Shown: positions 6,401 to 44,639 of the stretch, piece by piece
Layout of the letters: each line of letters starts with the position of its first letter
Position numbering within the stretch: position 1 is the first letter of the stretch
Made by a program: the position numbers and the translations under genes
The notes under the pieces: model-generated
Seen by the model: only the letters and a program-made list of their open reading frames with translations
Told to the model about the DNA's origin: nothing
Database searches by the model: none
Origin: Mytilus galloprovincialis
Taxonomy: Eukaryota > Mollusca > Bivalvia > Mytilida > Mytilidae
Direction: 5' to 3'
Assembly (NCBI RefSeq): GCF_965363235.1
Contig: NC_134842.1
Location: forward strand, 2,445,112 to 2,509,111
Length of the DNA: 64,000 nt

Positions 6401-7178
6401 TCCATTAATATGTATAAAAACTTACATTCAGGGACTTTTTTTAAATGTATATGGTTACTACTGTAATATGTATTACCTGTGAAATCTCAATAACAAAATA
6501 TGTATTCTCACTTTGATAAGGTGCCGAGGATGCTTTGGTTCATGTGTTCGGAGATGATGATGATGTTATCCAGAATCTGTTGGAGATTAAAGCCGGAGCA
6601 ATGAGAGGTGTCCTCCCAGAACAAGCACTCTTCAGACTGATGAAGGACCTGATGCACTAGTATGTAGATTTATCATAAGATGAAAATCATTATATTCTTA
6701 GTATGAAACAATTTGATAATATACGTGTTTAAAAGGAAATACTCTGGATTGCATGTTGTCTGAAATGTATGTGCCAATGTCTGTGACGGGACTCTACTGC
6801 AGTAAATGTCAAGAACAACAAAAAACAAAAGCTTTACAAAACAAACATGTAGGTTTAAGATTTAAGTATTATGAGCTTTCATCAATAAGGAACTACTCAA
6901 CATTAATCCTATTTTTTTTTGCATATTGCCAAAACAAGTAACAGAATGCATGGAAGTCACTATCCATTGAATTACAAATTGCTAATTTTGTTTTGGAAAC
7001 ATTGAAACCTCTATTAATATAAACACTATTATATTTCAGCCGTCTAGAGGCCCGTGTTCTCATTGCCCAGAACAGAATCCTTGAAGAGAAAGTAGCTGCA
7101 TCCCAATTCCACGCCATGCCACCATTTGCCAGAAGCCCATTCGGTCTGAGAGTTCTTGGATGTAGACACCACCATTAA
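470..7178 (+). CDS. Met-rich acidic secreted-type protein, paralogue A (5' end outside window)
   Basis: Thirteen exons joined in one open frame: 470-556, 1003-1047, 1448-1534, 2625-2705, 3041-3103, 3559-3645, 3886-3966, 4460-4522, 5145-5189, 5631-5699, 5967-6002, 6521-6659 and 7040-7178 (stop TAA). Introns are GT..AG. All but the last are phase 1; the last is phase 2. The visible part encodes about 340 residues. It starts inside the segment GISEDQINEAV, which matches exon 4 of paralogue B, so the signal peptide and first exons must lie left of the window. Short charged helical segments rich in E, D, K and M come first, then a Pro/Met stretch (GGPMPPPMMMPQEM), then a conserved domain AEDALVHVFGDDDDV...LMKDLMHYRLEARVLIAQN. 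The tail ends CRHHH and holds the only cysteine in the visible part. Function and family are not recognised. Secretion is inferred from paralogue B. Confidence 0.85.
1563..1745 (+). repeat. Dispersed mussel repeat, family 1 copy
   Basis: Starts with TCTCGTTTGAATTGTTTT, contains GCTGACTATGCGGTATGGG and GTTGAAGGCCGTACGGTGAC, and ends with GTTGTCTCATTGGCA plus a T-rich tail. Other copies lie at 4915, 35946 (-), 43764, 46336 and 63913. It is short and non-coding; whether it is a SINE or a MITE is not resolved. It sits in an intron of paralogue A. Confidence 0.75.
1750..2240 (+). repeat. Two tails of dispersed repeat family 2 in an intron
   Basis: Two partial copies (about 1755-1845 and 2145-2235) of the 3' part of a repeat. 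Each has TAATGGTTTACT, a short A/T run, TTGAATGGAGA or a variant, then CTCATACCACA or CTCACACCACA. The full family is seen at 22317 and 23386. Confidence 0.5.
2758..2830 (-). repeat. Fragment of dispersed repeat family 1
   Basis: Contains TTGCCAATGAGACAACTCTC and CACAAGAGACAGAATAACAC, the reverse complement of the family 1 tail. It lies just downstream of the exon ending at 2705. Confidence 0.6.
2885..2945 (+). pseudogene. Decayed duplicate of the paralogue A exon at 2625-2705
   Basis: The segment with AAAGTTAAGTATGCCATTCT, a short K/L-rich codon run and a GTAAG donor followed by AAATGGAGAAAG matches, with substitutions, the 3' half of the exon at 2625-2705 and the start of its intron (GTAAGTAATAGAGAAAG). 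Its local frame contains stops, and I see no matching acceptor, so it is unlikely to be spliced in. It suggests the helical segments of this protein grew by exon duplication. Confidence 0.45.
4018..4082 (+). repeat. Dispersed repeat family 4 copy
   Basis: Contains TTGATTGTTGATTGCTTAAC, then GTGGCAAATATTTCATGCAG and a CAGGACGAC end. Related copies lie at 53425 and 55140, with a short piece near 2595. Confidence 0.55.
4726..4780. repeat. GC-rich perfect hairpin in an intron
   Basis: The left arm TGCACGGCTCGTGTGACC (4726-4743) and right arm GGTCACACGAGCCGTGCA (4763-4780) are exact reverse complements over 18 bp, with a 19-base loop. It is far more GC-rich than the intron around it. It could be a core of a small foldback element or a structured RNA element in the pre-mRNA of paralogue A. 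Confidence 0.8.
4915..5036 (+). repeat. Diverged dispersed repeat family 1 copy
   Basis: TTCTAGTTTGAATTGTTT, then TAGCTGACTATACGATAT and GCAGAAGGCCGTGCTATGAC. It is more diverged than the copies at 1563 and 46336, so probably older. Intronic. Confidence 0.6.
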
Positions 7179-7242
7179 ACGGGCGATACAAACTGCTGCT
7201 GCTCTAGAATCTGTGTTCCACTCTATGCTTTGTTGTGATACC

Positions 7243-7363
7243 AATAAACATCAGGTTTCAAAATCTTACTGTCAAACATTACAGTTGTCTTTCCTTTTCT
7301 TTTAATTGATGTTATGTATTAATTATCTTTGTTTGTGTGCCACATTACTGTAGACTCAATAAA
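7243..7363 (+). promoter_or_regulatory. Poly(A) signals of paralogue A
   Basis: AATAAA at 7243-7248, 65 bases after the stop codon, and a second AATAAA at 7358-7363. The first is the likelier signal because of the short 3' UTR it gives. Confidence 0.6.
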
Positions 7364-9595
7364 AAACGAGTGGATTCACTGATGTTAGACTGTTAATTAT
7401 TCTATACAGGATACGTTTATTTTCAAACAGAGCGCCATAAGAATCACTGCATGTGGACTAAAAAAAGAGCTCACTAAAAATACAACCTTTAAGTTCTAAA
7501 CGTAAAAACCTTTGGAAACATAAAAGCTAAAACACAACAAAGTGGCAACCAATTGGTTTTTTTTAAACCCAAAACAGCCCTCGATCAAATGAGAAGATGA
7601 CTGGCGAAGAATTGTTCATCAACCAACCAATTTTCATATATTTGAACCTTGTATTATCCAACATTGCGAAGAAAGGTTTTAATAAGGATCTTTGATCTGA
7701 ATTTAATTAATTACGCGTTTAGGTCGAATAAAAAGAAGACAATCAATTAGCCTTCAGCCTCCCCCAACCGCCCCCATCCCCCAAAAAACAAAACAAAAAA
7801 GATTAACAAAAACATTAACAAAAAAAAAAACACACACAAAAAACACAAAGATGTCAAAGTCTATAACTCGAACTGAAGTTTAGTTACTTGAATATTCGAT
7901 CACCTCACCCGATGACGTATTTATATAAGATGAGAGCACAGTATTTATCATATCTCAAATGGAGCATTTGATTTAAAAACATAATCAGAAACAGTACGAT
8001 TCTTGATTCGTACAAAAATAAGGAAATGTGATATATTTGCCAATGAGACCACCATTCATTTTATTTCAAATGGTGTGGATTATATATAGTGAATATCATT
8101 TTGACGTTAAGGTGGCGAGTTCTTATAATTGCGCTTGAATAAAAAAAAACCAATTGTATCAAGAGCTCTACTTTTCAATCTCATGTGTTTAGATTATAAG
8201 CATGCATTTAACCCTGTAATCATGCTGACTGAACTAATTGCCAATAACGCATCTATTCTGCAAATCTCTAGGTGGGTTTCAAATCTGACACAAAATGGAG
8301 AAAAGGGATAGTGAGTATATGAATACATCACGCAAGATCAATGCGCAAACATGCTTTTCATTTCAAAATCCCATATGATGTCCAAAATATAGGTTGCAAT
8401 TTAAAGCGTAGCAGTTAATGACAACTCGACTTACTGATAATATTAAGAAGATATATAGCGCATAACACAATGTAGAATTCTGACTATACAAAGAACCCAC
8501 GTGACCCTTACCGTACAGACAAAAACAATATCGTTGAAATGAAATAGAATAACACGAGCCTCTTAAAACCCTCGGGATGAATGCAGGTGCAACGGATGGG
8601 AAAGCAATTCCTGCTCCATCAATGACACGTGGTCGTATTAGGTGATGAACAAGGAAAACTGACCGATGGACGGGATTTATGGTACGACAAATCAAGCATG
8701 TCCGTGGTCAACTGTGAAGAATAATCCCGTAATCTTCGATGATTCTTCGTAAAGCTGTCACGAAACCCATAAATTACAAAATTAATATTCAATATATATT
8801 TAATTTGGAGGTCGTGTTGTTTCTCAGAAATTATTTAACATTCTTATTCACAAAGATATGCCGTCTTCTTAAATATAACAATATATTTGAAAAATTTGTA
8901 GAATGCTTGAAATAGAATTCATACTAAATCTTAAAATAAGCTAACATGGCTATGGTACAGAAACTTCAGTCATGAAAGTATTTCGATAGTACTTATATAA
9001 CCTAAGACACATAAATATAAGGTAATTATTTAAGGAAGTTTAGATTAAGACATTACATGTGAAGGAAGTAAACTTATAGCTTAAGGCAACTTTATAAAAA
9101 CCATGCATTAATCGATTAACAGTTAGAAATCTTAAACTTGTCGTAAACATGTAAACGGAAGAAACTAACCTCATTGACAGTACTATTTTAACAAGTATCG
9201 AATAAGTTAAAAAAAATCTTGTTTTATGCTTTGAAATTTTTCCATCTGTATTTACTGTGAAGGGCAAGATTATTTCAGTATTACAACCATTGAACAAATC
9301 AAAATTATTCTGATTTAAAAAATAAATTAAATTGATAGCGATTTATTTTTAAACACGCAATTTATATGATGTAGATTCCGTGTTCACGCTTAGCTTCCTT
9401 CAAATGCCTTTCAGGAGAAGCGTTGACACAAGATCTATTTCAATCGGATTTTCAGTTTGCAGTTTAAAAAACCCAAACTAAATAAAAGTTTGAAAAAGAG
9501 AAATGCAAACAAACGTAAATCTGATTCGCATGTGCACAAATAAAAATCCATTTACAGTCTTACACATGCACATTATTGCACACCTGACAGATCTC
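7364..9595. other. Intergenic stretch without supported gene
   Basis: AT-rich spacer between the two paralogues. It holds a short family 1 tail fragment near 8028-8070 and an A-rich stretch at 7785-7850. An open frame of 110 codons at 8363-8695 (-) has no recognised domain and looks like repeat-derived sequence. Confidence 0.5.
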
Positions 9596-12141: not shown

Positions 12142-15100
12142 ATGATGATTAAATTAGTAGTCCTAGGCATGTTGGCCGCATGCGCCATGGCACAATGTAA
12201 GTAAACACAGTCTTAAGTTTTCCCTGTACTATAGATTTATTTTTTTAAATTGTCATTTTCAGTCCTTAAGTCTTTTCTTGTGTGACTAAGTTTTTTGTTA
12301 CGTTGTTGTTGCATTGTTTTTTTAACATTTTGGCAGCCAAAACAAATTAAGTATACATTTCAAGAGTTAAAATATGTTATAAAATAGCAAGTTTATACAT
12401 TTGCAAAAATGAACATTTTTATTTTATTCTGACATCAGTAAAGATACCCTCTGTTCATTTCATGTAAATGAGTTTATTTTCTGTTTACAGTCCTAATGAT
12501 GGGTTTTATTCGTGTAGATAATGATTTCTCCTTTTCTGTTTACAGTCCCAATGATGGGTTTTATTCATGTAGATAATGATTTCTCCTTTTCTGTTTACAG
12601 TCCCAATGATGGGTTTTATTCATGTAGATAATGATTTCTCCCTTTCTGTTTACAGTCCCAATGATGGGTTTTATTCATGTAGATAATGATTTCTCCTTTT
12701 CTGTTTACAGTCCCAATGATGGGTTTTATTCATGTAGATAATGATTTCTCCCTTTCTGTTTACAGTCCCAATGATGGGTTTTATTCATGTAGATAATGAT
12801 TTCTCCTTTTCTGTTTACAGTCCCAATGATGGGTATGGGAGGATTCGGTGGCATGGACCTGAAAAACATTGAGAGCATGATCCCAGAAGGTACATTCGAT
12901 ATGATAAAAAACATGAAACCAGAGGATATCAAAGAAGCCATCAAAAATATGCCACCAGGAATGGGTGACATGCTCAAGGGAATGGGTAAGTCATCATCAT
13001 CATATTCACGGGTCACATGATACGGGCACATGATACGGGGATTGCTGATATGATAAATTGCGCCAAATGGACGATTCACTCAAACAATTATATAAAAAAT
13101 TAGAACTATATATTCACAGTTTTATACTCACTCGCTCTAATTTTAATTATTCAAAATCGCAATTTCTCATCTCATTAGATACTTTATAATTCATATAAAC
13201 CAAGATTACCATTATTGTTGGTTTTTTAAGGTACCGTAACTTTCTAACAGCCGAACAGTTGAACTACTGATTTCACTCTGAAGTCCGTCTGTTTCTATCC
13301 CCTTTATATGTATTCATACCCCTGACTTATGATATTTTGTGTGATCTTGATTAGTGTAGATTCTCCAAACTATATCACCGTATATAATTGTTTTAGGAAT
13401 CTCTGAAGATCAGATTAAAGAAGCCGTCAACAACATGCCAGAAGATATGGACATGGCCGCCATGTTCGACCAGGCTAAAGACAAAATGGGTAAGAATTAA
13501 TCTAAAATCTGCCTTTTTGCAAATCTAATCTATGTATTCAATTGCTGTTTGGATTTCCTCCGCTTAATTAATACCAAAGAAAAGGGGTTCCAACCTAATT
13601 TACATTCTTTACTTAATTGAAATTCTATTCTTCCATTCAAATGACTCAGACACCTTAAAAAGTAGAAAAAGATATACCAAGGAATAAAAAAAAAGCAGTA
13701 AACAAAGAAAAAAATATTATACCAAGGTAAAAAGACAAACGTCCGAAAAAACAAACAACAAAGTAACACACAAAATAAGATTGGGCTCTCGATACAAACG
13801 ACGGCTTAATGAAGTTAGTCAATTATTGTAAAAATAAAGAAATCAAGAGGGAAAGATCTTACTGGGATTCCCCTCCGAATTTTGAGATCGTGGTAACTTC
13901 GGTTACCATCATTTGCTTGTCAACAGGTCAACAGTGCGATAAAAAAATCCATTCTTTTTTGTTAGATTTCGAAGTTTTATTATTTTCGTTTAATTTTTTC
14001 TCAGGAGATCTCGTTGACAAAAGCAAAGACGAAATGAAAAGCCAGCTGTCAAACGAACTTAGCGAAATAAAGGAAGAAAAAAGGAAAGAACTTGAAGAAG
14101 CAGGTATTGACTTGTCCGGTGGCGTCAGCGGTCTCATGTCTCAGATGATACCAGAAATCACAGAAATGTTCGGAGAAAAACTTAGGGCCGAAGGAATCGA
14201 CACTGGTGAGTACCAGCTATAGAAAATAATTAAATCACGTGATGTCAACTTTTAAATCTATCTACTGAGGTTGTATCTACGAAACTTTTTTGTATAAAAG
14301 CAAAGAGAAAACAAATATCATCCTTATCATATTCTGAAATGTGTATATCTGATTGACATTTCAAAATGTAAACAAATATTTAAAAAAAATGATTCTGTCT
14401 GAGGTAAAATATTTATGTAAACCTAACCCGAATCTTTTTCAGATGATCGTGAAAAATTGAACGAAGAAGTACGTAAACAGATGCGTGAGTTCGCCGGAGC
14501 TGATGAAGATGATACTGATGAACAAGTCAAGGAAAAGTTCATGAAGGGATTCCTTGAAGAAATGAAACAAAATGGCTTCGAGATCAAATCGGATGATATG
14601 GCTGAAGGATTCCAGGAACTCAAGAAACAAATCGTTGATGAGCTTAAAGATATGGGATTCGAGATTGAAGATGGTAATATATATATATATTTTATGCACT
14701 TTAAGCACTTAAGTCAAAATGGGAAAGGAGGGTTAATGGCAAACAACACACAATAAGCTATTTCGGGAATAGAAAATACAAAACCATTCCTCAAAAAAAT
14801 CAAGACATTCACTTGTATGTTTTAATATTTTTAAAAAAAGAAAGAAAGAAAAAAAAAACATTAAAAAATTGTCTCATTTCTTAAAAAATACACTTAAGCC
14901 TGATTCATAAAGAAGCACAAGACCATTGTCAATTCGGCTTATTATTCTATATTTTCAAAACATCAAATATTGTATTTAATAAGTAACAGAAATATATATA
15001 TATATGTTTTCATAGAATTACTTTTACTTTGCAGAAGATGTGTCCAACCTCCCAGAAATGATGAAGAAAATGATGAAGAGTGGAAAGTTCAACCCCCAAA

Positions 15101-16824
15101 TGATGATGGGAATGGTCGCCCCAATGATGCAAGGTATTTAGTCAGATCTTTATATCGGCAGCAATATCGGATTTTTTTTCGTGGCTCCATATTTTTATTT
15201 TGTTTATACCCTTTAATCTTTCACTATGTCAAGTTTCATGCTTTTACCATAAAGTGATCAATTATTAGTGTATCTGTATCTAAATAATCTATTCATATAA
15301 AATTATTTGCAAATTCTGGAAAAAAAATAAATGGTTCTGATGTGTAAAATGTATGTATACTGTAGTTCTTGTTTGAAGGAAAACGTAAATTTTTAGAAGA
15401 GAATTAATATAAATCAAGACATTTAAGACATTTTAGACATAGCAATAACAAAGCCGAGGATTTCACGTTAACAAAGTATATATACTATCGTCCAATCATA
15501 ATCATCGTTACAAACGAGTTACATAAGAATCTTTCATTGGTTGATTTGATTTTACAGGTCCACCAATGATGGGACCAATGGGACCAATGGGACCACCAAT
15601 GATGCAAGGTCCACCTATGGGAATGAGACCACCTATGGAAGGTCCAATGAGGCCACCAATGGGAATGAGAGGAATGAACCTGAATCTTGACATCGATATC
15701 AATCAGAGACCACAGACTCCAGTCGTAACCCCAGGCTACGTTCAAGGTAATTCACAATTTTTCATTCTTTAAACGTTTTCTTAACCAGATTACAGAGAAC
15801 TGTCAGTGTAAATGTTTTAGAGTACAATCTATAGAATTACTTTTGGGAAACCATATGTCTAATCACATTTCTGACTTTTTCTAAGCATATGTGGTATTAT
15901 GCACGAAAGCGCTGTAAATAAAAGCAAAAAGTCGAAGATAAAAGTTTGTTCTCAAATGACAAAAGTTTAAAATAAAGTTGGCATCACTATCATTAACTTG
16001 ATTAAAGTCATATTTGTGATATTACAATGTGCTTCTGTTTGTCAATATCTTACCATTATGCATGGTTGTAACTCATGTTATGTTTGTTATACTTTCAGGA
16101 GCCGAAGATGCTCTTTTGCACGCTCTTGGTGATGACTCTGACGTTGTTAGACACGTGATGGCAGTCAAGTACGGAGCTGAAACCGGAACTGTCATGGAAA
16201 GTGATCTCCACGAAATTCTCAGAGATCTCATGCACTAGTAAGAAATTTTTTTTATTAGTTCTTTGTATAATATATTTATATGATTGACTCGAATATAAAT
16301 TCCCAAGAAATTAACTTCGTTAAGAAACTTTGTTTATCTATTCTTGCTTAGTACACAAGTTGTGTAAATAACTGAAATGGTTTCCTTTTTTCTCCTTCAA
16401 ATTAATCAAAATATAAAACTATCTAGACATTTTGATTTCTATCATTAAAATAAGTATTTTTGAAATTATAATTAGTTACTAAAGATCTTAAAAGCAGCAA
16501 TCCATGTTTTCAGTATGATATTGTCTTCATTGAAAACTGCACAAGTAATTCGTGGTTAGTCTGACTCTTTGTGCAATCGAAGACCACCTAGCTAACAATG
16601 TTATTTGGTACTACTATGTATTACACGAAGACCACCGAGCTAACAATGTTATTTGGTACTACTATGTATTACAATTCCTTGTATAAACCAATGAAGAATG
16701 CAGGGTAAATTGTGCTATGATTAACACATTCATTTTTTTCTCTTTTTCCAGTCGTCTTGAAGCCCGTGTTCTGATGGCCAAGAACCAGATGCTCAGAAAC
16801 AGACTTTACGATGTTATGTTGTAA
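12142..16824 (+). CDS. Met-rich acidic secreted protein, paralogue B (complete)
   Basis: Nine coding exons: 12142-12196, 12821-12985, 13397-13489, 14005-14205, 14443-14673, 15035-15133, 15558-15746, 16099-16237 and 16752-16824. They total 1245 nt, or 414 residues plus TAA. Introns are GT..AG, phase 1 except the last (phase 2). Residues 1-17 (MMIKLVVLGMLAACAMA) form a clear signal peptide, with cleavage expected before Gln18. The mature chain has no cysteine. Layout: an MGMGGFGGMD start; acidic amphipathic helices containing KPEDIKEAIKNMPPG and GISEDQIKEAV; long E/K/D/M-rich helical exons; a low-complexity Pro-Gly-Met exon at 15558-15746 (GPMGPMGPPMMQ and similar); then a conserved C-terminal domain AEDALLHALGDDSDVV...LRDLMHYRLEARVLMAKNQM. 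The ATG at 12142 sits one base after a splice acceptor and begins the signal peptide. An extracellular matrix or secreted gland product is plausible. The family is not recognised, and no enzymatic motif is visible. Confidence 0.9.
12491..12820 (+). repeat. Tandem array of a 55-bp unit carrying a splice acceptor
   Basis: Six 55-bp units run directly into exon 2 of the coding sequence. Each ends in TTTTCTGTTTACAG or TTTCTGTTTACAG and begins with TCCCAATGATGGGT, the first bases of the exon at 12821. AG acceptors therefore fall at 12490, 12545, 12600, 12655, 12710, 12765 and 12820. Units 3-4 and 5-6 are identical pairs, which points to a recent 110-bp duplication step. Only the last acceptor gives a long open frame. 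Confidence 0.92.
16578..16673 (+). repeat. 48-bp tandem duplication in the last intron of paralogue B
   Basis: Two near-identical 48-bp copies beginning CGAAGACCACC and ending ACTACTATGTATTACA. They differ by one base (CTAGC versus CGAGC). Confidence 0.85.
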
Positions 16825-18326: not shown

Positions 18327-18384
18327 TTACTGTATGGAACGCCATCACTGCCTTATAAGAAGAAACTACTATGACATGATGCAA

Positions 18385-18720
18385 ATGTTGCTCACATGAT
18401 GTGAATTCTCCTTTATATGATGTGAATTCTTCTTTACATGATGTGAATTCTTCTTTACATGATGTGAATTCTTCTTTACCTGATGTGAATTCTTCATTAC
18501 ATGATGTGAATTCTTCTTTACATGATGTAAAATCTTCTTTACATGATGTGAAAACTTAATTACATGATGTGGTTTCCTCTTTACATGATGTGAAAACTTC
18601 ATTACATGATGTGAAAACTTCTTTAAATGATGTGAACACTTCATTACGTGATGTGGTTTCCTCTTAATATGATGTGAAAGTTTTATTACATGATGCGAAA
18701 ATTTCTTTACGTTATGTTAA
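18385..18720 (-). repeat. Left arm: about thirteen 21-bp repeats
   Basis: The unit is ACATGATGTGAATTCTTCATT with substitutions. Copies are regular near the outer end and decay inward (TGATGTGGTTTCC, ATGATGCGAAAATTTC), fading by about 18720. Because the unit is a multiple of three, both strands stay open and give spurious SHHVKKN-type peptides. Confidence 0.9.
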
Positions 18721-20290
18721 AAAATCTTTTATGTCGTATTTCTATTACAATATGCCAAAATATATACATCGTAATGTCAAATTGGTATTACGAGGTAAGA
18801 AACACATATGACGTTATGTGAACACTTCATTATGTCAAAACATCTTTATAAGAACACGGGACCTCTCGGACGTTATTATTGTTATTCAGACTCCTTTGAT
18901 TTTTTCCAAAGCTTTAGGGTAAAATATTTTGCCCCATAACACCTATTTTTATTTTCATAAAAATCTTCAATAGCTAATTTTGAGATCCAATTAATACCAA
19001 TGCAAATGCAAGGTAAAAGTCCAATTCATCCTTTTCCCGCCATTTTTTAAAACTGAAATATCTCAAGAAGGAGCTCCATGACCTATCAATATCTTTTAGC
19101 TTATTTTTTTCCTTCGCTGATGCTCTTTCGACTTATACATGTAGTATCAATTTTAATTTCTGAATTTTTTTTTAATTTCAACTAAGTACATACTTAAATG
19201 CATTTAAAGGGAGCTGAATATAAAATATCTGTAAATTATGAGTGATGCTATACATTTAAAGCTTATAAGCATGGCCATGTCATATTTAAAAATTTTTTTT
19301 TTAAGTATAAGTCATTTTTTTTTATATGTTTATATAAATTTAGGAACCTAATTCAAATGAAATTTATATGAAAATATTACTTTTTAGAGGCAATTTTGGC
19401 AAACCCCTTCCAAAAAATATTCGAAAATACTTCTCCTATATCATGTATATTCAGAAGCTATACGGTACATGTACAATTGTTTCACTTACGTTACTTTGTT
19501 ACATATCTCACTTTGAAATAAATAAATCTATTAACTTATCTAAACTTAAAAAAATAAATCCATACAAAAATAGCTAAGAAGTGATACACAAGCATAAAAA
19601 GTGTGGACAAAGAAGACCAGTATGGGTAGTATCCAGCATTCTGAAAGTATTGCATGGCAAAACATAGTCCCCTACCAGTTAAAATTCATTATTCTCAAAC
19701 AGAAAATTTGAAATTGATGTGTAAATTGTAATGTTAAAAGTAGATACCAAATATCAAATCAATATAACGGTAGTTAGACAAGCATGACTAAAACATGTGC
19801 AGAACATTGTTTGATTTTTCTAGGTCTAAGGATCATTTGAATTTGCAAAATATCATCAAATCAAAACTAAATTTAAACTTGATCTGTAACTTGTAATGGT
19901 AAAACTATAAAACAGATTTCAAATCTAAATCTGTAAGTTAATGACAAAAAAAATAGTGGAAAATTTATTTCTTGCATTATTTTTCTAAGTTCGATGACCA
20001 TAAAATTGCAAACACAATTCGCACTTGATCTGTAACTTGTCATGGTTTTACTAATAATTTCTATGTCAAATTTTAAGTCAATGTCTTTAAAAAACATAAA
20101 AGTGAATTTTCTAAGTCCAAGGGCAATAACTCTGCAAAAAATCCTCAAACCGTTACAAAACTTGAACTTGATTTGTAACTTGTCATGCGTATATTATATA
20201 CTAAATATCAAATCAATATCTTCAAGCATGGCCAACAACAGTGACATATCTCTTGCACGTAAAAGACATTCTTGTAGATTTCGAAACCGA
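18721..20290. repeat. Element interior with diverged ~150-bp tandem units
   Basis: Between 19690 and 20240 a unit recurs about four times. Landmarks are TTGATCTGTAACTTGTAATG or TTGATTTGTAACTTGTCATG, then ATATCAAATCAATAT, then TTTTCTAAGTCCAAGGGCAA-like sequence. The stretch at 18900-19090 is also of a dispersed bivalve-repeat type. No gene is seen. Confidence 0.55.
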
Positions 20291-20533
20291 GTAGGCTAAT
20301 GCCGCTACAAGGCAGCACTCGCATTTGCAAAGTGGAAAGGGATTTATATAAGTTGCAAAACGTGTTACCGAATCCACTATAAATAAATACGTTTTAAACT
20401 AAAAAATGCGGAAAGCTAATTTTCTAGACGGACAAAGTGCAAACCTAAAGTCCCCTTCAACTTCGTTGGTAAGGGACCCATAAACGTTTAGTATATAATA
20501 CTGAGGTTTCCTAAAATATAAACCTTATAATAG

Positions 20534-21214
20534 TGTAATAAATGTGCCTAGTTAATTCCCCTTACTTTTGGATAGATTAATTATTTGATGATTAAATGTT
20601 TATTTTAAGTTTTATTTGATTTAAACTCCACAGTGAGATAAAAGTAAGGATTGTTAATTTAACTGTTTTAGTATTTAACTTTTGATGTTTCTGTAATATT
20701 TTATGAATATTAGTTTATTCAATTTGTCTTCAGTACCTTTAATGTAAAAGTTAACCGGTTTAATGACAATATAAGGATTTTAATTGGGTTTTTTCAGTCG
20801 GAGTCGGCCTTGTACAGGCCTCCAAATACTCACCGGACTGTATCAGTCCACTTCAGTTTCAAGTTAGTCACCACTTCGGTGCAGTTTGATAGAGTTAGTC
20901 ACCTCTTCTTGTTGCAATTTACTACTTAAAACACAACGCGAAGCCAATTTAATTTACTAAAGACTAACTCTTGGGAACACTTTATTTTTCATTTTACATT
21001 TGAAATTACTCTATTTTTGAACTTCATTTAAGAAAGTTTTTTGATTCTTGTTTGTCGGCAATTATTGTACATTTGTGACTAAACATAGTTTCATTTGATT
21101 AATTGTCTGTTGTTCCGCCATAATCTGACGTCAGGTGTCCCGATGGTCGAATAGGGACACAATACTGGCAACTACACGTCCCGGGAGGTGTCGTCACCGA
21201 CCCTCTCCGTTACA
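20534..21214 (+). mobile_element. Candidate solo LTR (fossil)
   Basis: About 680 bp bounded by TGTAA at the left and TTACA at the right. The 3' part is distinctly GC-richer than its surroundings (CGTCCCGGGAGGTGTCGTCA near the end), like an LTR R-U5 region. No internal coding region and no clear target-site duplication are seen, so the call is tentative and the family is not assigned. Confidence 0.3.
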
Positions 21215-21479
21215 ATAACACTACCATAAAAATACACCACCAAGAACGTTTCTATAAAGTTTTGAACCCTTGAATGACCTTAAATCCTATATATCCTTAA
21301 CAAGCCTATGGACTGTGCAACAAAACGTTTATAGTGAAAATATATAGGGCACAGATTTTGGGTTAAGGAGTTATGGAGCACAATAATACTGTAAACGGCC
21401 AAACCTAATAATAAAAAAGACAAAGCACGCTTCTATCAAGTTTTGAACCCTTTACATGACATAAAATTATCAGGTGACG

Positions 21480-22016
21480 TTCACATCAGGTAATGCAGTT
21501 CTAGCATTACGTACTGCAATATACACATCATACACTAAAGTATTTGCATCATATACAAGCGTTTTTATTTTAACAGCACATAAGGAAAGTTTCGCATCAT
21601 GTAATGAAACAACCACATCACGTAAAGACGTTTTTACATCATGCAATGAAGTTTTCACATAATGTAATGAAGTTTTCACATCATGTAATGTAATGAAGTT
21701 TTCACATCATGTAATGAAGAGTTCACATCATGTAATGAAGAATTCACATCATGTAATGAAGAATTCACATCATGTAATGAAGTATTCACATCATGTAATG
21801 AATTATTCACATCATGTAATGAAGAATTCACATCATGTAATGAAGAGTTCACATCATGGAAAGAAGAGTTCACATCATGTAAAGAAGAATTCACATCATG
21901 TAATGAAGAATTCACATCATGTAAAGAAGAGTTTACATCATGTAAAGAAGAATTCACATCATGTAATGAAGAATTCACATCATATAAAGGAGAATTCACA
22001 TCATGTAAGCAACATT
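21480..22016 (+). repeat. Right arm: about seventeen or more 21-bp repeats
   Basis: Reverse complement of the left arm. Copies based on AATGAAGAATTCACATCATGT are regular from about 21690 to 22016; decayed copies extend inward to about 21480. The count differs from the left arm, so the arms have expanded or contracted independently. Confidence 0.9.
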
Positions 22017-22316
22017 TGCATCATGTCATAGTAGTTTCTTCTTATAAGGCAGTGATGGCGTTCCATATTACTGTCATAAACAATAATTATTACAGACCAG
22101 AGTCCGTACCAGTAGTTTCTTGAAACACCATTGAGGTAAAACATCCATTGATGGTATCAGCCGGATTTGAACATGAAATCCCAACATCTTAACAGAATTA
22201 GAATAGAAAGATATTCTCTTACGTTTACGAGTTAGACTCCCTTTACCAGTATATTTACAATTTTACATAATTTTGTATGTCAAAATAACCAATGGGATGC
22301 ATTGTAAAGTTTAAAT

Positions 22317-25360: not shown

Positions 25361-25427
25361 CACTATTATTCTAACATTTCACATAAGAAAGTGAACTTTC
25401 TCCTAATTTATTTTGTTGTTGTAGATA

Positions 25428-26093
25428 ATGGCGAACTATCCCATCAACGTTTATACAACCGTCTTCAAGGACGATATTGTTCAACAACATCAGCAGATAG
25501 ACGATTTAGGAAAAGCTGGACAGTGGTCAGAACTTGTAGAATTGTTGGAAAGTAGCGGCGAGCTTGTAAATTCAAGCAGACTTCCAGTGAAGGGAGATAA
25601 TAAAGGTCCTGCCTGGTATACGCCTCTTCATTACGCAGCTGACTTAGGTGCACCGGAACACATATTTAAAGATTTAATACGACTGGGTGCATCGAAAAGT
25701 ATGAAGAATGCTGAAGGTCAAACCGCTTATGACATTGCAAAAAGTAAAGGTCTTGATAAAGTTATATTGGACCAATTAGTGATTCCAAAGAAAATAAAAC
25801 AAAACGCCGCTGCAATTGAGAAAATGGAAAAAGGCTTACACGAGGTCATCAATAGTAGAGTTAAAGACTTGATAAAGGGAAACGGACAAGCTTTACCTCA
25901 ACTTTCTCTATTATTTGAACATGGAAGTTTTTATTATCCTGTACCCGGAATGTATGGTGGTTTTAGTGTTAGTGAACACGACGATGGCATCCAAGCAGAT
26001 AGCTGGATTCGTGTTTGTGGCGGAAGTGAACAAAATCACGTGGTTAATAAGGAAGGCAAAGTTACTTTATTACCAAATGACAATCCTCTTTAA
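25428..26093 (+). CDS. Ankyrin-repeat protein, single coding exon
   Basis: 221 residues in one open frame ending TAA. A splice-acceptor-like TTGTTGTTGTAG ends three bases before the ATG, so an upstream non-coding exon is likely. Residues about 60-115 form two ankyrin repeats: TPLHYAADLGAPEHI, then LIRLGASKSMKNAEGQTAYD followed by IAKSKG. A charged linker (KKIKQNAAAIEKMEKG) comes next, then a C-terminal region with FEHGSFYYPVPGMYGGF and SVSEHDDG. Ankyrin repeats are protein-protein interaction modules; no catalytic motif is visible. The C-terminal region is not recognised. This copy lies in the left arm of a large inverted duplication; a broken paralogue lies in the right arm at 35258-35767. 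Confidence 0.85.
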   Translation: MANYPINVYTTVFKDDIVQQHQQIDDLGKAGQWSELVELLESSGELVNSSRLPVKGDNKGPAWYTPLHYAADLGAPEHIFKDLIRLGASKSMKNAEGQTAYDIAKSKGLDKVILDQLVIPKKIKQNAAAIEKMEKGLHEVINSRVKDLIKGNGQALPQLSLLFEHGSFYYPVPGMYGGFSVSEHDDGIQADSWIRVCGGSEQNHVVNKEGKVTLLPNDNPL

Positions 26094-29125: not shown

Positions 29126-29192
29126 CAAAGAATAATTTTTATACGACCGCAAAATTTGAAAAATGTTTCGTCGTATATTGCTATCACGTTGG

Positions 29193-29222
29193 CGTCGGCG
29201 TCGTCGTCGTCGTCGTCGTCGT
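29193..29222 (+). repeat. GTC trinucleotide microsatellite
   Basis: GGCGTCGGCGTCGTCGTCGT followed by further GTC units, near the left end of the TIR element. Confidence 0.85.
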
Positions 29223-30347
29223 CCGGCGTCCGAATACTTTTAGTTTTCGCACTCTAACTTTAGTAAAAGTGAATGGAAATCTATGAAATTTTAACACAAG
29301 GTTTATGACCACAAAAGGAAGGTTGGTATTGATTTTGGGAGTTTTGGTCCCAACATTTTAGGAATTAGGGGCCAAAAAGGGCCCAAATAAGCATTTTCTT
29401 GGTTTTAGCACTATAACTTTAGTTTAAGTTAATAGAAATCTATGAAATCTTGACACAAGGTTTATGACCACAAAAGAACGGTTGGGATTGATTTTGGGAG
29501 TTTAGGTTTCAATAGTTTAGGAATTAGGGGCCAAAAAAGGGCCCAAATAAGCATTATTCTTGGTTTTCGCACAATAACTTTAGTTTAAGTAAATAGAAAT
29601 CAATGAAATTTATACACAATGTTAATGACTACAAAAGGAAGGTTGGTATTGATTTTGGGAATTAAGGTCCTAACAGTTTCGGAATTAGGGGCCAAAAAGG
29701 GACCCAAATAAGCATTTTTCTTGGTTTTCGCACCATAACGTTAGTATAAGTAAATAGAAATCTATGAAATTTAAACAAAAGGTTTATGACCATAAAAGGA
29801 AGGTTGGTATTGATTTTGGGAGTTTTGGTCCCAACAGAATAAGGGGCCCAAAGGGTCCAAAATTAAACTTTGTTTGATTTCATCAAAATTGAATAATTGG
29901 GGTTCTTTGATATGCCGAATCTAACTGTCATGACTGTGTATGTAGATTCTTAACTTTTGGTCCCGTTTTCAAATTGGTCTACATTAAGGTCCAAAGGGTC
30001 CAAAATTAAACTTAGTTTGATTTTGACAAAAAATGAATCAGTTAGGTTCTTTGATATGCTGAATCTAAAAATGTACTTAGATTCTTGATTATTGGCCCAG
30101 TTTTCAAGTTGGTCCAAATCGGGGTCCAAAATTAAACTTTGTTTGATTTCATCAAAAATTGAATAAATGGGGTTCTTTGATATACCAAATCTAACTGTGT
30201 ATGTAGATTCTTCATTTTTGGTCCTGTTTTCAAATTGGTCTACACTAAAGTCCAAAGGGTCCAAAATTAAACTTAGTCTGATTTCAACAAAAATTGAAAT
30301 CTTGGGGTTCTTTGATATGCTGAATCCAAAAATGTACTTAGATTTTT

Positions 30348-32190
30348 GGGATACGATTGCTTTTAAGCAATCTGTAGACTTTTACCGTTGACTCAGGGCT
30401 CATTCCCTCACGTCAACCGTTTTATTCTAAACATTCAGCAACATCTCATATTCTGATGATTGTCTTGCTTTAAAAGGTAAAAACAAGCAAAAGGATTGAA
30501 CATAAACAACTTTCCTGTAATGTTCTTCTCATAATCTTCATGTTTGATTTTTCCCTTGACTTATATGCGTGTTTTTAACAACACGGAAAATCAGAATTAA
30601 GCAGTATTTATATTTAGTGTTTTTATAAATTTAGACACACGTCAGAGGGAATTCCCCAGTTTTGATAAATCCGAGAGTTCTTTGAATTCCGATAATTCTA
30701 TTTCTGTCATATAAGAACTGAAGTGGAGTTTTTTTTATATTTTACCGTTATGAAACTGATACTGTACTCTCATAAAGAAATTGAGACTCATTCATCATAT
30801 CATAAATTAAATAAACGTTCTCGTCGCGGGTTTGTTTATGTATTAATGCGCATGCGTATAGTTTTGATTTCAAGGGGTATCAGATTGAGTGGTTGTTCTG
30901 GATTCCCCGCTTATTAATTAATTTGAAACTCATTGGATTTTTTCTATGTCTGCCTGCTATTGAGGGTTTAATATTGTTGATGCATAATTTAAAATCATAT
31001 GCACCATTTAAATTAAAATCAATGAAGTTTTACCTATAACACCCCTTTAGCCGAAATGGAGTCTTCCATATTATCGTTTCGAGTTGTCTCCCTTTCAGAA
31101 GTATTTCCCGTCAAAATCGTCAAGAAAAATTAACTCGTTAGATGTCGACAGAAGAAAAGAAAGGTAATCCTCGACCATGGACAGCTGTTGATACCATAAT
31201 GGAGGAGATATCTGTTGCAGTTTCAATCCACACTGAAGATGAAAAGGATCATCCAATTATGACACATCTCTGGTCGAGTTTGTACGTTCTGAGGAAATTT
31301 CTATTACATCAGAAGAAGTCAAAGGAGACCTCTTGTTATATGAACATTCAGACCACACTTATGCAGCAAAAGAACAGCCATTTGAGAATGAAAAAATATG
31401 TACGCTTGAATTTGATTGCCATGCTGATTTTTTTCTTGCACCACTGGAAGGCACAGAGCAACTGATTACACAATACATTTGTAATTGAGATATTTGCAGT
31501 GAATGAGACACACAATGAACATGAAGAACCTTGCCTTTCTCCCATTCTCCCTTTCAGACTTTATGCAATTTATTACAAGTTAGCATCAATGATACATGTA
31601 CATATATCCTTAGCTGTACAGATACCGAAATTTGCATACAGTTGAACTGTACCAGATCAGTTGCAGGGAAATTAGCACGAAGCTCTCAGTTATCAGTGAC
31701 TGCTGTGGAAAGTAAACTTGGAATTGATAGCACACAAATAAAACACAATAAGTACATTGCTCGTACACTTGTATCCAGGATTAGCTATTTTTAAAGTTGA
31801 GTGACTATTCAGATTTATATTACCTTTGCATGTGCAGTTGAATTAGTTTTGAAAGTAATACTATCCAGCTGTACCTTGCGGTCATAAAACTTTCGAGTCA
31901 GTTTTTTTGTACTCATACTCGAAAATCAACCAATGAAATTGCTTGATTTCTTGTTTCGAGCATGATTTTTGTGCTCCAAGCACTGAGCAAAGTTTTATGC
32001 CTTCAAGGCCAGGGCTGCCAAAAATGCGTGAGACTCGCGCATGTTCATGCTTTTTTGCAGCAGTATCCTTGGATCAATTTTTTCCCATTTGATCTTTTCT
32101 ATTTTGGCCAAATCTCACGAATTTGCTTAATGAAAAGTTGGCAGAACTGCTATACATGTGTCAATGAAAACTATATGGCAATCGTATCCC
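30348..32190. mobile_element. Insertion inside the TIR element
   Basis: Sequence foreign to the host repeat, with GGGATACGATTGC at 30348-30360 and its reverse complement GCAATCGTATCCC at 32178-32190. The host repeat stops at CTTAGATTTTT and resumes at TTTGATTTATTATGGGCCCA near 32207. About 16 bp (with GAGCATTCTGCTC, itself a hairpin) separate the right motif from resumed host sequence, so the exact right border is uncertain. The class is not assigned. Confidence 0.6.
31142..31500 (+). pseudogene. Possible broken gene fragment inside the insertion
   Basis: A 107-codon frame begins MSTEEKKGNPRPWTAVDTIM and stays charged. From about 31267 the adjoining frame reads smoothly (SEEVKGDLLLYEHSDHTYAA, then KEQPFENEKICTLEFDCHAD) and ends about 31485. 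Two overlapping protein-like frames suggest an old coding sequence with a frameshift. I do not recognise the family. It may be a captured host gene piece or part of the element's own gene. Confidence 0.3.
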
Positions 32191-32764
32191 TCAGAGCATT
32201 CTGCTCTTTGATTTATTATGGGCCCAGTTTTCAAGTTGGTCCAAATCAGGATCTAAAATTATTATATTAAGTGTTGTGCAATAGCAAGTCTTTTCAATTG
32301 CACAGTATTGCGCAATGGCAAGAAATATCTAATTGCACAATATTGTGAAATAGCAAATTTTTTTTAATTAGAGTTATCTTTCTTTGTCCAGAATAGTAAG
32401 CAAGAAATATCTAATTGCAAAATATTGTGCAATAGCAAGATTTTTTTATTAATTGGAGTTATCTTTCTTTGTCCAGAATCAACTTAAATCTTTGTTATAT
32501 GCAATATACAATGTATATTCACTTTTTACTACCAACTGATAAATTATAATAAATAACATTTAGTGATAACAAGCAGTTTTTTTTTACATCTTAATATTTT
32601 ATGATGTATTTAAATGAGTAGTTATTGTTGCAAACTCCATTAGAAATTTTAATTTAGATTAGTTTTGGAATAAGGGAAAGGGGGATGTGATTAAAAAAAT
32701 TGGGTTCAATTTTTCTCATTTGAAATTTCATAAATAAAAAAGAAAATTTCTTCAAACATTTTTA

Positions 32765-33075
32765 TGCCCCACCTACGATAGTAGAGGGGCATTATGTTTT
32801 CTGGTCTGTGCGTCTGTCCGTCCGTCTGTCCGTTCGTTCGTCCGTCCGTTCGTCCGTCCGTCTGTCCCGCTTCAGGTTAAAGTTTTTGGTCAAGGTAGTT
32901 TTTGATGAAGTTTAAGTCCAATCGACTTCAAACTTAGTACACATGTCCCCTATGATATGATCTTTCTAATTTTAATGCCAAATTAGAGTTTTTACCCCAA
33001 TTTCACGGTCTACTGAACATGGAAAATGATAGTGCGAGTGGGGCATTCGTGTACTGAGGACACATTCTTGTTTTG
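32765..33075 (+). mobile_element. ATGCCCCACCTACGATAG-type repeat inserted in the TIR element
   Basis: Starts ATGCCCCACCTACGATAGTA and GAGGGGCATTATG, continues with a (GTCC/GTTC)n run, and ends GAGTGGGGCATTCGTGTACTG. The host repeat is broken at CATTTTT and resumes at TTTTGAGAGGATTAATATTC. It is a frequent bivalve repeat by recall. The outer GGGGCAT/ATGCCCC motifs are inverted, suggesting a MITE. Confidence 0.65.
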
Positions 33076-33739
33076 AGAGGATTAATATTCAACAGCATAG
33101 TGAATTGCTCTAAGAGAAAACAAAAATTTTAAGTTCATTAGAACACATTCATTCTGTGTCAGAAACCTATGCTGTGTCAACTATTTAATCACAATCCAAA
33201 TTTAGAGCTGAATCCAGCTTGAATGTTGTGTCCATACTTGCCCCAACCGTTCAGGGTTCAACCTCTGCGGTCGTATAAAGCTACGCCCTGCGGAGCATCT
33301 GGTTACACCAAAACTCAAAACAATTTCTTCAAAACATTTAGAAGTACCTGTCTATGAATATCACAAGCTTGGCGGAACATAATACATGAAATAATTCTGT
33401 TTTGTATATCGTAGAACAGAGCAACATTTTGTTTGTATATCGACAGTACAGAGCGATATTTGGTTTGATCATGCAATTTAACATTGAACTTTAACGTATA
33501 TTTTTCCAAATTCAAATCATTTAAGTTAGCACGGTAGTATTTGAATTCCAGTATTTAGGTTGCTCTTTTGTGTACCATACTGAAGTCAGTGAATTTAAAC
33601 AGTGAAATTGGACGATACATACTGTATCAACTGAACAGACTTTTTCTAACTGGTGAAAAATATGAAACAATTTTACATACAAGTGAAAATGATGTTTTGC
33701 GAATTTTAGTGAATTTTATATTCACTGCATGATAAAAGA

Positions 33740-41500: not shown

Positions 41501-44500
41501 CGTTATTTTATATCTTTACGTGCTTGAAATTCAATTGCTAATTACTATTGATAGAGCTCTTTTATATTTCAAAGGACTCCAATTATTAAAACTCCTTTAT
41601 CAAACAGTTCAGTCCATTGTAAAACAAATAAATAGATTATTGTAAAAACGCTGTAATGACATTGATTAACTAATAGATTTAGGTCGTAATAACGGAAAAT
41701 GGAGCAGGATATAAAGAATTCATAAGCAAAACAAAACAATGCAACGTTCACTTGTATTCTGACATCTCATTTGTGATCAAAGTATTTAATCATTCCATTA
41801 AAACTCAGCGAACTGTTACACACACACGTTGGGTTTTAAATGGAGAAGAGAGAGACCCCCAAAAGATTATCCCCTCCAAATGTCCTCCTCCAAACTCAAA
41901 TTGTAGGAAATTCTCATTTCTAAGCATAAGACAAAAAATCTGAAATAAAAAAGGTTCATTCTGTTTACTGAAGTTAAGGTTGCACACCAACTAACCTCAC
42001 ATACTCAATCAGCGCCTTATTTTCAAACACAACACTATTGAGTGTAAAACAAACAGATGATAAGACAATAACCATTTTTCATTTAAATTAAGTGCTATTT
42101 TCACCGTGAAAAAGGTATAATTATAGTTCATCTTTGTTTTTTTATCATATTATTTTTTCTTAAGTTTCAAAAATCCCAAATTCAAGACATTGTTAATCTA
42201 TTTATCATAAATCTACCGCACGTGTTATTGTGTTATTAAGCACATACCTCGTGTGCCATATTGTTGTCAGTAAATATCATGACTACCTCACGTGTGTCAG
42301 TGAGTATCTACCTCACGTGTAAATTGTGTCAGTGAGTATCTACTTCAAGTATAAATTGTTCCGTGAACATCTACCTCACTTGCAAAAAGTGTCAGTTAGT
42401 TTCTACCTCACGCGTAAAATGTGTCAGTAAATATCTACCACACGAACCAATTGTGTCAGTAAGTATCAACCTCACACGAAAAGTGTGTCAGTAAGTATAA
42501 ATTTAACGTGTAAATAATGTCAGTAATTATTAACCTTACGTGTAAATTTTGTCAGTGAGTATCTGCTTTATGTGTAAATTGTGTCAGTAAAGTCCAAGTG
42601 TAATTCGTGTCAGTAAATATCTACCACACGTGTAAATTAATTATTATTCAGGACAGTATCTATCTCACGCACAAGGTGTTTCCTTATATACGAATGAACT
42701 GTGTATGTAAGTATCGTCTTAACATAGAATGTTAGAACATAAAACTCCTCTCCATTAATTGTGTTTATTTCAAAACCATTAAATTTGATTATTTTCATAT
42801 GAAAATCGTTAATCTACACGAGACTCTACAATATTGTCAAATCTTAATAAGATACCGGTAATGTTTTTGCATTTCCAATTTAACAAATGGTACAATTTTA
42901 CAACACTTTGCCACGAAAACCTTCCCTTGGCAATGATTACAGAAACATATCATAATGCTGATGTTAACAGCTAGTTAAGTAATTGCTGTTACAATTGAAT
43001 GACAAAAACGTAGACAATTCGCTGTAGCAAATTGTTGTGTTAACGATATTGTGAAAAAAATATATTACATTAATAAAATTGTTATCTCATGCGTTGTGTA
43101 ACATCTTCTAGATATTATTTGTTTTTCTTGCAATCCGATAAACTAGATACATATTGACATGTATATACAATATCAAATGGCAGTTATTTGATCTTATTAA
43201 GGTCAACCGATGTTTCTATGACTTTCTCTCCAATTTTCCTTTAAAGCAGTGGTAATATCATGAGTAATTGTTTTGGGTTATGTTTACTCCATCCACAAGA
43301 TTACATTATTTGTCTGGGTGTTTACAACGTTAATGTGTAACTGGTACCATGTGAATTGTCTAACAGACCTGTTTTACTTTAATGTAACATTCAATTGAAA
43401 AATTGATGCCTAGGCTTCGAATAGGACTTTGGATCTAGACTGAGTGATTACTCAGTGAAAAGTAATTTGAATGATTACTTATAACGTATTTTCGAGAATG
43501 TGATGTTCTTTAGTTAGTCTGATTGTAGAGTATTGTGCTGCTTATGGGTACAAAGAAAATGCATGTGTATTAAATATGTTTAGCACAAATCACATATAGG
43601 TTTCTACACATTCAATAATTCGGTAATTAGCTGTGACCATTGTAGCAATATATAAACCATAACAGTAACGGTTTTGCAACCTTTCTGATACAAACAGGCC
43701 ATTGTTGTTTGTTTTTGGGTTACAAATTTGGTTTTCGTTTATTATTTTTTTTACATACATAAGGCCGTTAGTTTTTCTAGTTTGAGGTTTTTTCATTTGT
43801 CATTTTGGGGAATTTCATAGCTAACAGCGCGGTATGGGCTTTGCTCATTGTTGAAGGTCATACTGTCATATGTTTGTTAACTACTGTGTCATTTGGTTGT
43901 TTGATTAGCAATAATGCCATATTAATTTTGTTTATATATATCCTGCCATATCTGTAACCATTCTGACAACCTTCAGCTAGGACATATGACTATAAACGTT
44001 ACTGAGAACTAACCTGCTACAAATTGTACATAACCTGCTATAACTGTAACAGCCCTTATAACTTACCTGCTACAAACTGTACATATCCTGCCATAACTGT
44101 AACAGTCCTAGCAACTTACCTGGTACAATAAAATTAACGGTACCAATTTTCTTGCACCAGATGCGCATTTCGACAATACATGTCTCTTCAGACTGTACAT
44201 CACCTGCCATAACTGTAACAGCCCTAACAACTTACCTGCTACAAACTGTACATATCCCGCCATAACTGTAACCGTCCTAACAACATCACATGGTATACAC
44301 GATGTACATACAGCTAAGAATGCTCCACATGAAAGTAGTACACATCCTGCTCCATATAAAACACACGCCGCCTGCCAAGCTCCAGACGGTAAGTTTCCCA
44401 AATTGAAATATCCACCATAAAACTCACATTCCTGTTTTAAGTTTCCTCCGGGAAATACTGTTCGTGATAAACACAAACTTATCATTCCAAACGTATCTAA

Positions 44501-44605
44501 CAGATTGGAACCAACAAGCCACACAGGCTGAACGAATGCATACGTAGTTAAACCGGAAACCAGAACTGACAGAAAAGCCCAGATTATTAGAACGGGTGAT
44601 ATCAT
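38549..44605 (-). CDS. LHFPL: LHFPL-family tetraspan membrane protein, two coding exons
   Basis: Coding exon 1 runs 44605 to 44236 and coding exon 2 runs 38763 to 38549, joined by a 5.47-kb GT..AG phase 1 intron (donor GTAAGTTG; acceptor TCTATTTCAG). The product is 194 residues. The first ATG is preceded by an in-frame TAA ten codons upstream. Four hydrophobic segments: residues about 4-25 (IIWAFLSVLVSGLTTYAFVQ), about 78-100 (ACVLYGAGCVLLSCGAFLAV), about 112-135 (GYVQF...MIAGLFIYPLGFGS) and the last near IGWSFVLAVTGTCLAMFC. Family marks: QPVWLV, ECEFYGGYFNLGNLPSGAWQ, YPLGFGSSFI, and cysteines before the last helix. LHFPL proteins are claudin-superfamily tetraspans; some vertebrate members assist mechanotransduction or GABA-A receptor complexes. 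Which subfamily this is cannot be told. Confidence 0.88.
39617..39990 (+). repeat. 60-bp minisatellite in the LHFPL intron
   Basis: Six or more copies with landmarks TCACATGTATCTGGGGTATC, TTTATTTCAAGTTCTATTG and GATAGATGCGTTCAACAAAG. The period of 60 keeps some frames open. Confidence 0.85.
42256..42690 (+). repeat. ~36-bp minisatellite in the LHFPL intron
   Basis: About twelve imperfect units of the type TGTGTCAGTAAGTATCTACC plus TCACGTGTAAAT. Spacing varies by a few bases. Confidence 0.85.
43764..43930 (+). repeat. Dispersed mussel repeat, family 1 copy
   Basis: GGCCGTTAGTTTTTCTAGTT, GCGGTATGGGCTTTGCTCAT, GTTGAAGGTCATACTGTCAT. Its tail is diverged from the family consensus. It lies in the LHFPL intron. 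Confidence 0.7.
43936..44285 (-). repeat. Tandem array repeating the LHFPL exon end and splice donor
   Basis: A ~53-bp unit, in gene orientation GTTACAGTTATGGCAGGATA then TGTACAGTTTGTAGCAG, then a donor GTAAGTT, recurs about five times. The exon 1 end (donor at 44235) is the outermost copy; further donor-bearing copies lie at about 44118, 44065 and 44012. One copy is interrupted (about 44130-44185) by a fragment of a dispersed repeat with TTGCACCAGATGCGCATTTC. Confidence 0.8.
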
Positions 44606-44639
44606 GTCCTTAGTAAGATCATCGTTGGCTTGTTACATC

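Follow-up and report, generated by a model that had tools for sequence, protein, structure and literature searches.

A foldback element with arms of 21-bp units in the Mytilus genome and its likeness to IS3EU-type transposons

Foldback elements are among the reported hotspots of chromosome rearrangement; for some of them, Tetris for example, no source of transposase is known. Most seem to belong to the Mutator superfamily, although there are exceptions, and the structure may arise independently (PMC4079207, excerpts). FB, Tm1 and Tetris have inverted arms made up of tandem units in variable number; they are of the Mutator type (a proposal in the case of Tetris), the units of Tetris are about 220 bp long, and the target-site duplications (TSDs) are of 8-10 bp, as is described for Tetris and Tm1 (PMC4079207 and PMC3169594, excerpts). 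The repetitive ends of Galileo hold several THAP-binding sites (PMC3688188, excerpts). IS3EU elements are characterized by TA..TA termini and by duplications that are usually of 6 bp, and GingerRoot elements are alike in this (PMC10045372, excerpts); a set of fungal families has the termini TAYGG..CCRTA (PMC12730594, excerpts). In bivalves, two oyster satellites, with units of 690 and 129 bp, are annotated as DNA/IS3EU (PMC8268682, excerpts).

The window analyzed here is a stretch of 64,000 nucleotides (C5:2445112-2509111) from a Mytilus assembly of 1,384,861,812 bases in 331 contigs, which was also the genome searched. A 770-aa open frame in this assembly matches the decapeptide repeat of a Mytilus foot protein at 99% identity, in agreement with a mussel host. 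It contains a complete element of 3,735 bp at window positions 18333-22067, which begins with TATGGAACGCC at 18333, ends with GGCGTTCCATA at 22067, and is flanked on either side by the 6-bp sequence TTACTG (18327-18332 and 22068-22073, identical to each other). The initial annotation had described a complete unit with inverted ends and an exact 6-bp target duplication, and both descriptions are borne out. The longest inverted repeat is of 382 nt (18333-18714 versus 21686-22067), with a complementarity of 90%. At its outer edge, each arm has a conserved 50-bp terminus, located at 18333-18382 on the plus strand for the A end (TATGGAACGCCATCACTGCC...) and at 22018-22067 on the minus strand for the B end (...GGCAGTGATGGCGTTCCATA as read on the plus strand). 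The arrays of 21-bp units follow inward. In the A arm (18394-18717, plus strand, unit ACATGATGTGAATTCTTCTTT) there are 15.4 copies according to TRF, and in the B arm (21591-22008, minus strand, TTCACATCATGTAATGAAGAA as read on the plus strand) there are 19.7; a looser count of unit cores gives 17 units on the left and 24 on the right. The copy number is thus unequal on the two sides, as had been noticed at the outset. It had also been noticed that the arms are regular at the outside and decayed toward the inside, and this is correct: the units decay inward, and in the right arm the 21-bp register, regular at the outside, is broken toward the inside as well. In the left arm, the register is regular throughout.

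Inward of the arrays are two flanking segments, the A-arm inner flank (18731-18878, plus strand), whose 148 bp are 94.6% identical to the transposase-bearing 16-kb member discussed below, and the B-arm inner flank (21448-21587, minus strand), which is present in 17 of 17 two-ended elements of the same family. The middle of the element (18879-21447) has no stop-to-stop frame of at least 110 aa in the list of open reading frames. No transposase remnants were detected by tblastn there or in the rest of the window.

The element belongs to a family, called family 1 here. The 50-bp terminus has 50 matches in the genome at three or fewer mismatches (27 and 23 on the two strands), and its reversed control has none; the possibility that no second copy exists, raised in the initial annotation, did not come true. 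Family-1 elements were taken where a plus end is followed by a minus end within approximately 21 kb. There are 17 such cases, which account for 34 of the 50 terminus matches and comprise the window element and 16 relatives (the set consists of L039-L052, the 21-kb member L053-L055 and the 16-kb member L056-L057). The TSD scoring did not include the remaining 16 ends, which lack a partner or are surplus. Markers for the inner parts of the A and B arms are found at opposite ends in all 17 two-ended elements, with L050 carrying the A marker twice, and the copy number of the arm units differs among elements. The 21-kb member contains a nested Gypsy-like LTR retrotransposon.

Several loci of this family have unusual surroundings. 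Judging from its flanks, L039 sits inserted in a family-2 end. In L050 (C7:18339746-18345201), the left end is present twice together with its flank, at a distance of 1.9 kb, and the right TSD still matches. A series of four left ends, all oriented alike, spaced 6-8 kb apart and with flanks that are nearly identical where seen, is located at C1:65307378-65351335 (L058, L059). This is a tandem amplification that has taken in the element end along with neighboring DNA.

The initial annotation spoke of satellite arms, a term that is apt for the 21-bp arrays and not for the idea of a free satellite. A pattern of two array units has 309 matches in the genome, and 90 of the 100 matches listed adjoin a known terminus, as judged by eye; a stand-alone satellite is rejected on these grounds. 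The other 10 of the 100 fall at the loci C14:49351242, C11:7602147 and C5:2109761, near which there is no terminus among the termini listed. No long free satellite was seen among the 100 listed of the 309 matches.

TSDs were scored in 21 two-ended elements (17 from family 1, three from family 2 and one from family 3), which represent 19 independent sites because L048 and L049, and likewise L051 and L052, share flanks. Exact 6-bp TSDs are present in 16 of the 21 elements, and the number rises to 20 if one mismatched base is allowed; shuffling of the flank partners yields a mean of 0.78 exact 6-bp TSDs, so that the duplications are not due to chance. The exception is L046, with a TSD of only 5 bp, and the 16-kb member has one mismatch (A[G/T]AAAA). 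TSD lengths of 7-10 bp occur in none of the 21 elements, either exactly or within one base. TATGG is present at both ends of every one of the 21.

Empty sites were sought in a single search with 15 joined-flank queries, L049 and L052 being omitted as duplicates. The scoring covered 40 of 11,513 candidates, and the repeat that hosts L048 accounts for 37 of these 40 full-length rows. Among these 40 there are full-length empty sites for four of the 15 queries (L048, L045, L041 and L043). These sites are paralogous, and in a base-by-base alignment of five of them (two for L048 and one each for L045, L041 and L043) each has a single target copy. The empty copies for L048 read AAGAAT, as does the right TSD of that element, and the empty copy for L043 has a 15-bp indel beside the site. 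The empty sites envisaged in the initial annotation are thus found for four other members of the family, but not for the window's own locus, whose flanks, when searched alone, matched only at the element itself.

An autonomous-type partner sharing the terminus, which the initial annotation had proposed looking for, is found in the 16-kb member (C11:30801235-30817583). Both family-1 arms are present in it, and its minus strand encodes a DDE integrase core (PF24764, E=7.2e-68) at element positions 13547-14296. A further frame on the minus strand, at element positions 15174-15659, has weak matches to SAM and HTH domains below the Pfam cut-offs; it is likely that introns separate this frame from the integrase core. 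The transposase frames begin just inside the B arm. A second integrase core, on C1, is broken; it is located behind a terminus with array units and is 88% identical over 116 aa. The 16-kb member also contains a second gene (element positions 548-817 and 6726-8543), which starts just inside the A arm and encodes a SAM domain (PF00536, 3.2e-8), a weak match to a C2HC zinc finger and a long Asn-rich repeat linker. A HECT domain had been considered for this gene on the basis of a motif and was rejected, since it found no support in searches of Pfam and PDB. In the transposase-bearing members, genes start approximately 25-225 bp inside the arrays (with start codons chosen by eye). Given this placement, their promoters are probably located in the arms.

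Two further families are present in the genome. The 22-base terminus pattern TATGGAACGCCANCACTGNCTT has 812 genome matches at one mismatch or fewer (420 and 392 on the two strands, 100 of them listed; control 0). Family 2, a sister family, is represented by three elements of about 7.1 kb with arms of TTATATGATGTGCAAATATCC units and exact 6-bp TSDs. Just inside a family-2 arm, at L067, there is a 57-aa match (30%, E=1.3e-5), which could reflect either a transposase remnant or the repeats. Family 3 starts with TATGGAACGCC, as family 1 does, and its terminus has 87 genome matches (control 0). The family-3 element at L065:3955-7390 is 3,436 bp long and is flanked by exact CATATA duplications. Each of its arms contains a 21-bp array (14.0 and 12.2 copies, respectively), and the identity between the arms is 99.7% over 310 bp, a length in which a few flank bases are counted. 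Between the arms is an intact 473-aa frame that matches PF24764 at 2.5e-72 and, weakly, SAM_2 and HTH domains. Of 155 integrase-core matches, 11 have a family-3 terminus no more than 5 kb away as judged by eye, including those at L065 and L066. The integrase cores of families 1 and 3 are approximately 51% identical. D207, D264 and E297 are invariant in all four of the core sequences aligned and are assigned here as the putative catalytic triad. No HHCC motif was seen by eye upstream of the DDE core in the L065 protein.

At C7:71333319-71337911, two family-3 elements are found side by side, and according to the terminus coordinates there are 4 bases between them, less than one 6-bp duplication. 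A family-3 copy (L066) contains a 3.4-kb insert (L066:849-4236), whose positions 532-2833 match window positions 29133-30347 and 32212-33304 at 98% identity, which points to another mobile element at 29133-33304; relative to the insert, about 1.9 kb of extra sequence is present in the middle of the window copy. Also in the window are a coding frame for a lipoma HMGIC fusion partner-like protein at 44108-44632 on the minus strand (PF10242, 3.8e-13) and one with a weak ankyrin match at 25425-26093 on the plus strand.

The mussel elements resemble IS3EU and GingerRoot in their TA..TA termini, here TATGG..CCATA, in their 6-bp TSDs and in having a DDE core without an upstream HHCC motif. They differ in their long foldback arms of 21-bp arrays, which go unmentioned in the excerpts of PMC10045372 and PMC12730594. 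The combination of TATGG..CCATA ends and 6-bp TSDs fits IS3EU/GingerRoot and does not fit the Mutator lineage, to which most foldback elements seem to belong. This placement was made from the ends, the TSD length and the PF24764 core; PF24764 presumably holds IS3EU transposases. Galileo belongs to the P superfamily and has a THAP domain, whereas in the mussel elements the core is integrase-like and accompanied by weak matches to SAM and HTH domains, and Pfam scans of the frames from the 16-kb member and L065 revealed no THAP domain. The oyster satellites annotated as DNA/IS3EU have unit lengths different from that of the mussel arms (PMC8268682, excerpts). Pearl/MgE and Cg_HINE are also bivalve mobile elements with tandem repeats; however, their arrays are central (with units of about 160 bp in pearl) and they are related to Helentrons, whereas the mussel arrays are terminal and accompanied by 6-bp TSDs (PMC7492417, excerpts). 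A Helitron-like element of the pearl/MgE kind is rejected because the arrays of those elements are central. No description of foldback-armed IS3EU elements was recognized in the literature searched, which consisted of listings and excerpts of papers, Repbase apart.

Units were collected in a strict 21-bp register, which gave 440 units from family 1 (162 distinct, from 15 elements) and 143 from family 2 (81 distinct, from three elements). The units of both families have a conserved TTAYATGATGTG core. The least conserved positions are 1 and 16-18 in family 1, and 1, 16, 18 and 21 in family 2. The two conservation profiles correlate at r=0.80 (0 of 20,000 permutations were as high, the best of 21 circular shifts being taken), although the permutations treat unit positions as independent. 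The profile is also biased toward the core by the rule that units were admitted only with a core match (mismatches at no more than 4 of 10 positions); because this rule demands a partial core match, the correlation is support rather than proof. The consensus units of families 1 and 2 are also more alike than 1978 of 2000 shuffles. The family-3 unit, with a spacing of 20 or 21 bp, has no significant similarity to those of families 1 and 2 (602 and 170 of 2000 shuffles, respectively, were as good).

We consider it probable, at roughly 0.8, that the window element is a non-autonomous cut-and-paste transposon of the IS3EU type, moved in trans, and that its arms consist of putative transposase-binding sites arrayed at intervals of about two helical turns. 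We infer that a DDE transposase encoded elsewhere in the genome would recognize the common terminus and arms, excise the element and insert it at a 6-bp staggered cut, and fill-in would then leave TTACTG on both sides. Since 21 bp corresponds to about two turns of B-DNA, the units would place many putative binding sites for the transposase along one face of the helix, and an array of this kind could give a short motif enough specificity, as has been proposed for Galileo. From the sequence, a role as binding-site arrays appears the most likely one for the arms, which in transposase-bearing members would probably serve as promoters as well.

Tandem units are common in transposons, and their copy number varies among the elements described here, as would be expected if the arrays were functionless by-products of slippage or unequal exchange. 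We regard this as unlikely: a 20-21-bp period is found in three families (although the family-3 unit is not demonstrably related to the others), core and spacer are conserved in parallel in families 1 and 2, and the transposase-bearing members carry arrays too. It is somewhat less likely again that the pairing of the arms, as a hairpin or cruciform, is itself selected and drives movement or rearrangement. The arms of the window element are predicted to pair strongly, with a dG of -343.7 where 20 shuffled versions of one arm average -22.3 (the parameter set may not be that for DNA), and the near-identity of the family-3 arms and the rearranged loci, with their duplicated left end and flank in L050 and four left ends on C1, could be read in the same way. 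However, over the outer 165 bp of family-1 arms, the two arms of one element have a similarity of 0.926 (15 elements), compared to 0.922 between elements (420 pairs). An element's own arms are hardly more alike than those of others, and all 17 elements retain the A/B polarity; pairing thus does not visibly homogenize the family-1 arms, and homogenization by this route is unsupported. Finally, the initial annotation compared the locus to Drosophila FB elements, and it is indeed FB-like in architecture, with long inverted arms, short tandem units and unequal unit numbers per side, but a true FB or Mutator foldback element in mussel is very improbable and is rejected, since the TSDs are of 6 bp, with 0 of 21 at 7-10 bp, and the core of the partner is of the integrase-like PF24764 type rather than a MULE transposase, so that the lineage is not that of FB.

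The reading of the window element as an IS3EU-type transposon with binding-site arms may be extended, more tentatively and at somewhat less than even odds, to a whole lineage. It may be that IS3EU-type elements of this lineage, autonomous members included, have foldback ends that are arrays of binding units two helical turns apart, and that the 20-21-bp spacing outlasted both the replacement of most of the unit sequence and the divergence of the transposases to about half identity. The foldback structure would then have arisen outside both Mutator and P, with spacing as the conserved property. If the arms are indeed phased binding-site arrays in an integrase-like transposon, they would represent an independent route to the end structure proposed for Galileo in the P superfamily. 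Because one genome contains a foldback family together with its sister family and members that bear a transposase, the origin and use of repetitive arms are directly testable here. With 812 and 87 matches to their terminus patterns, it is also likely that these families give rise to structural variation in mussels.
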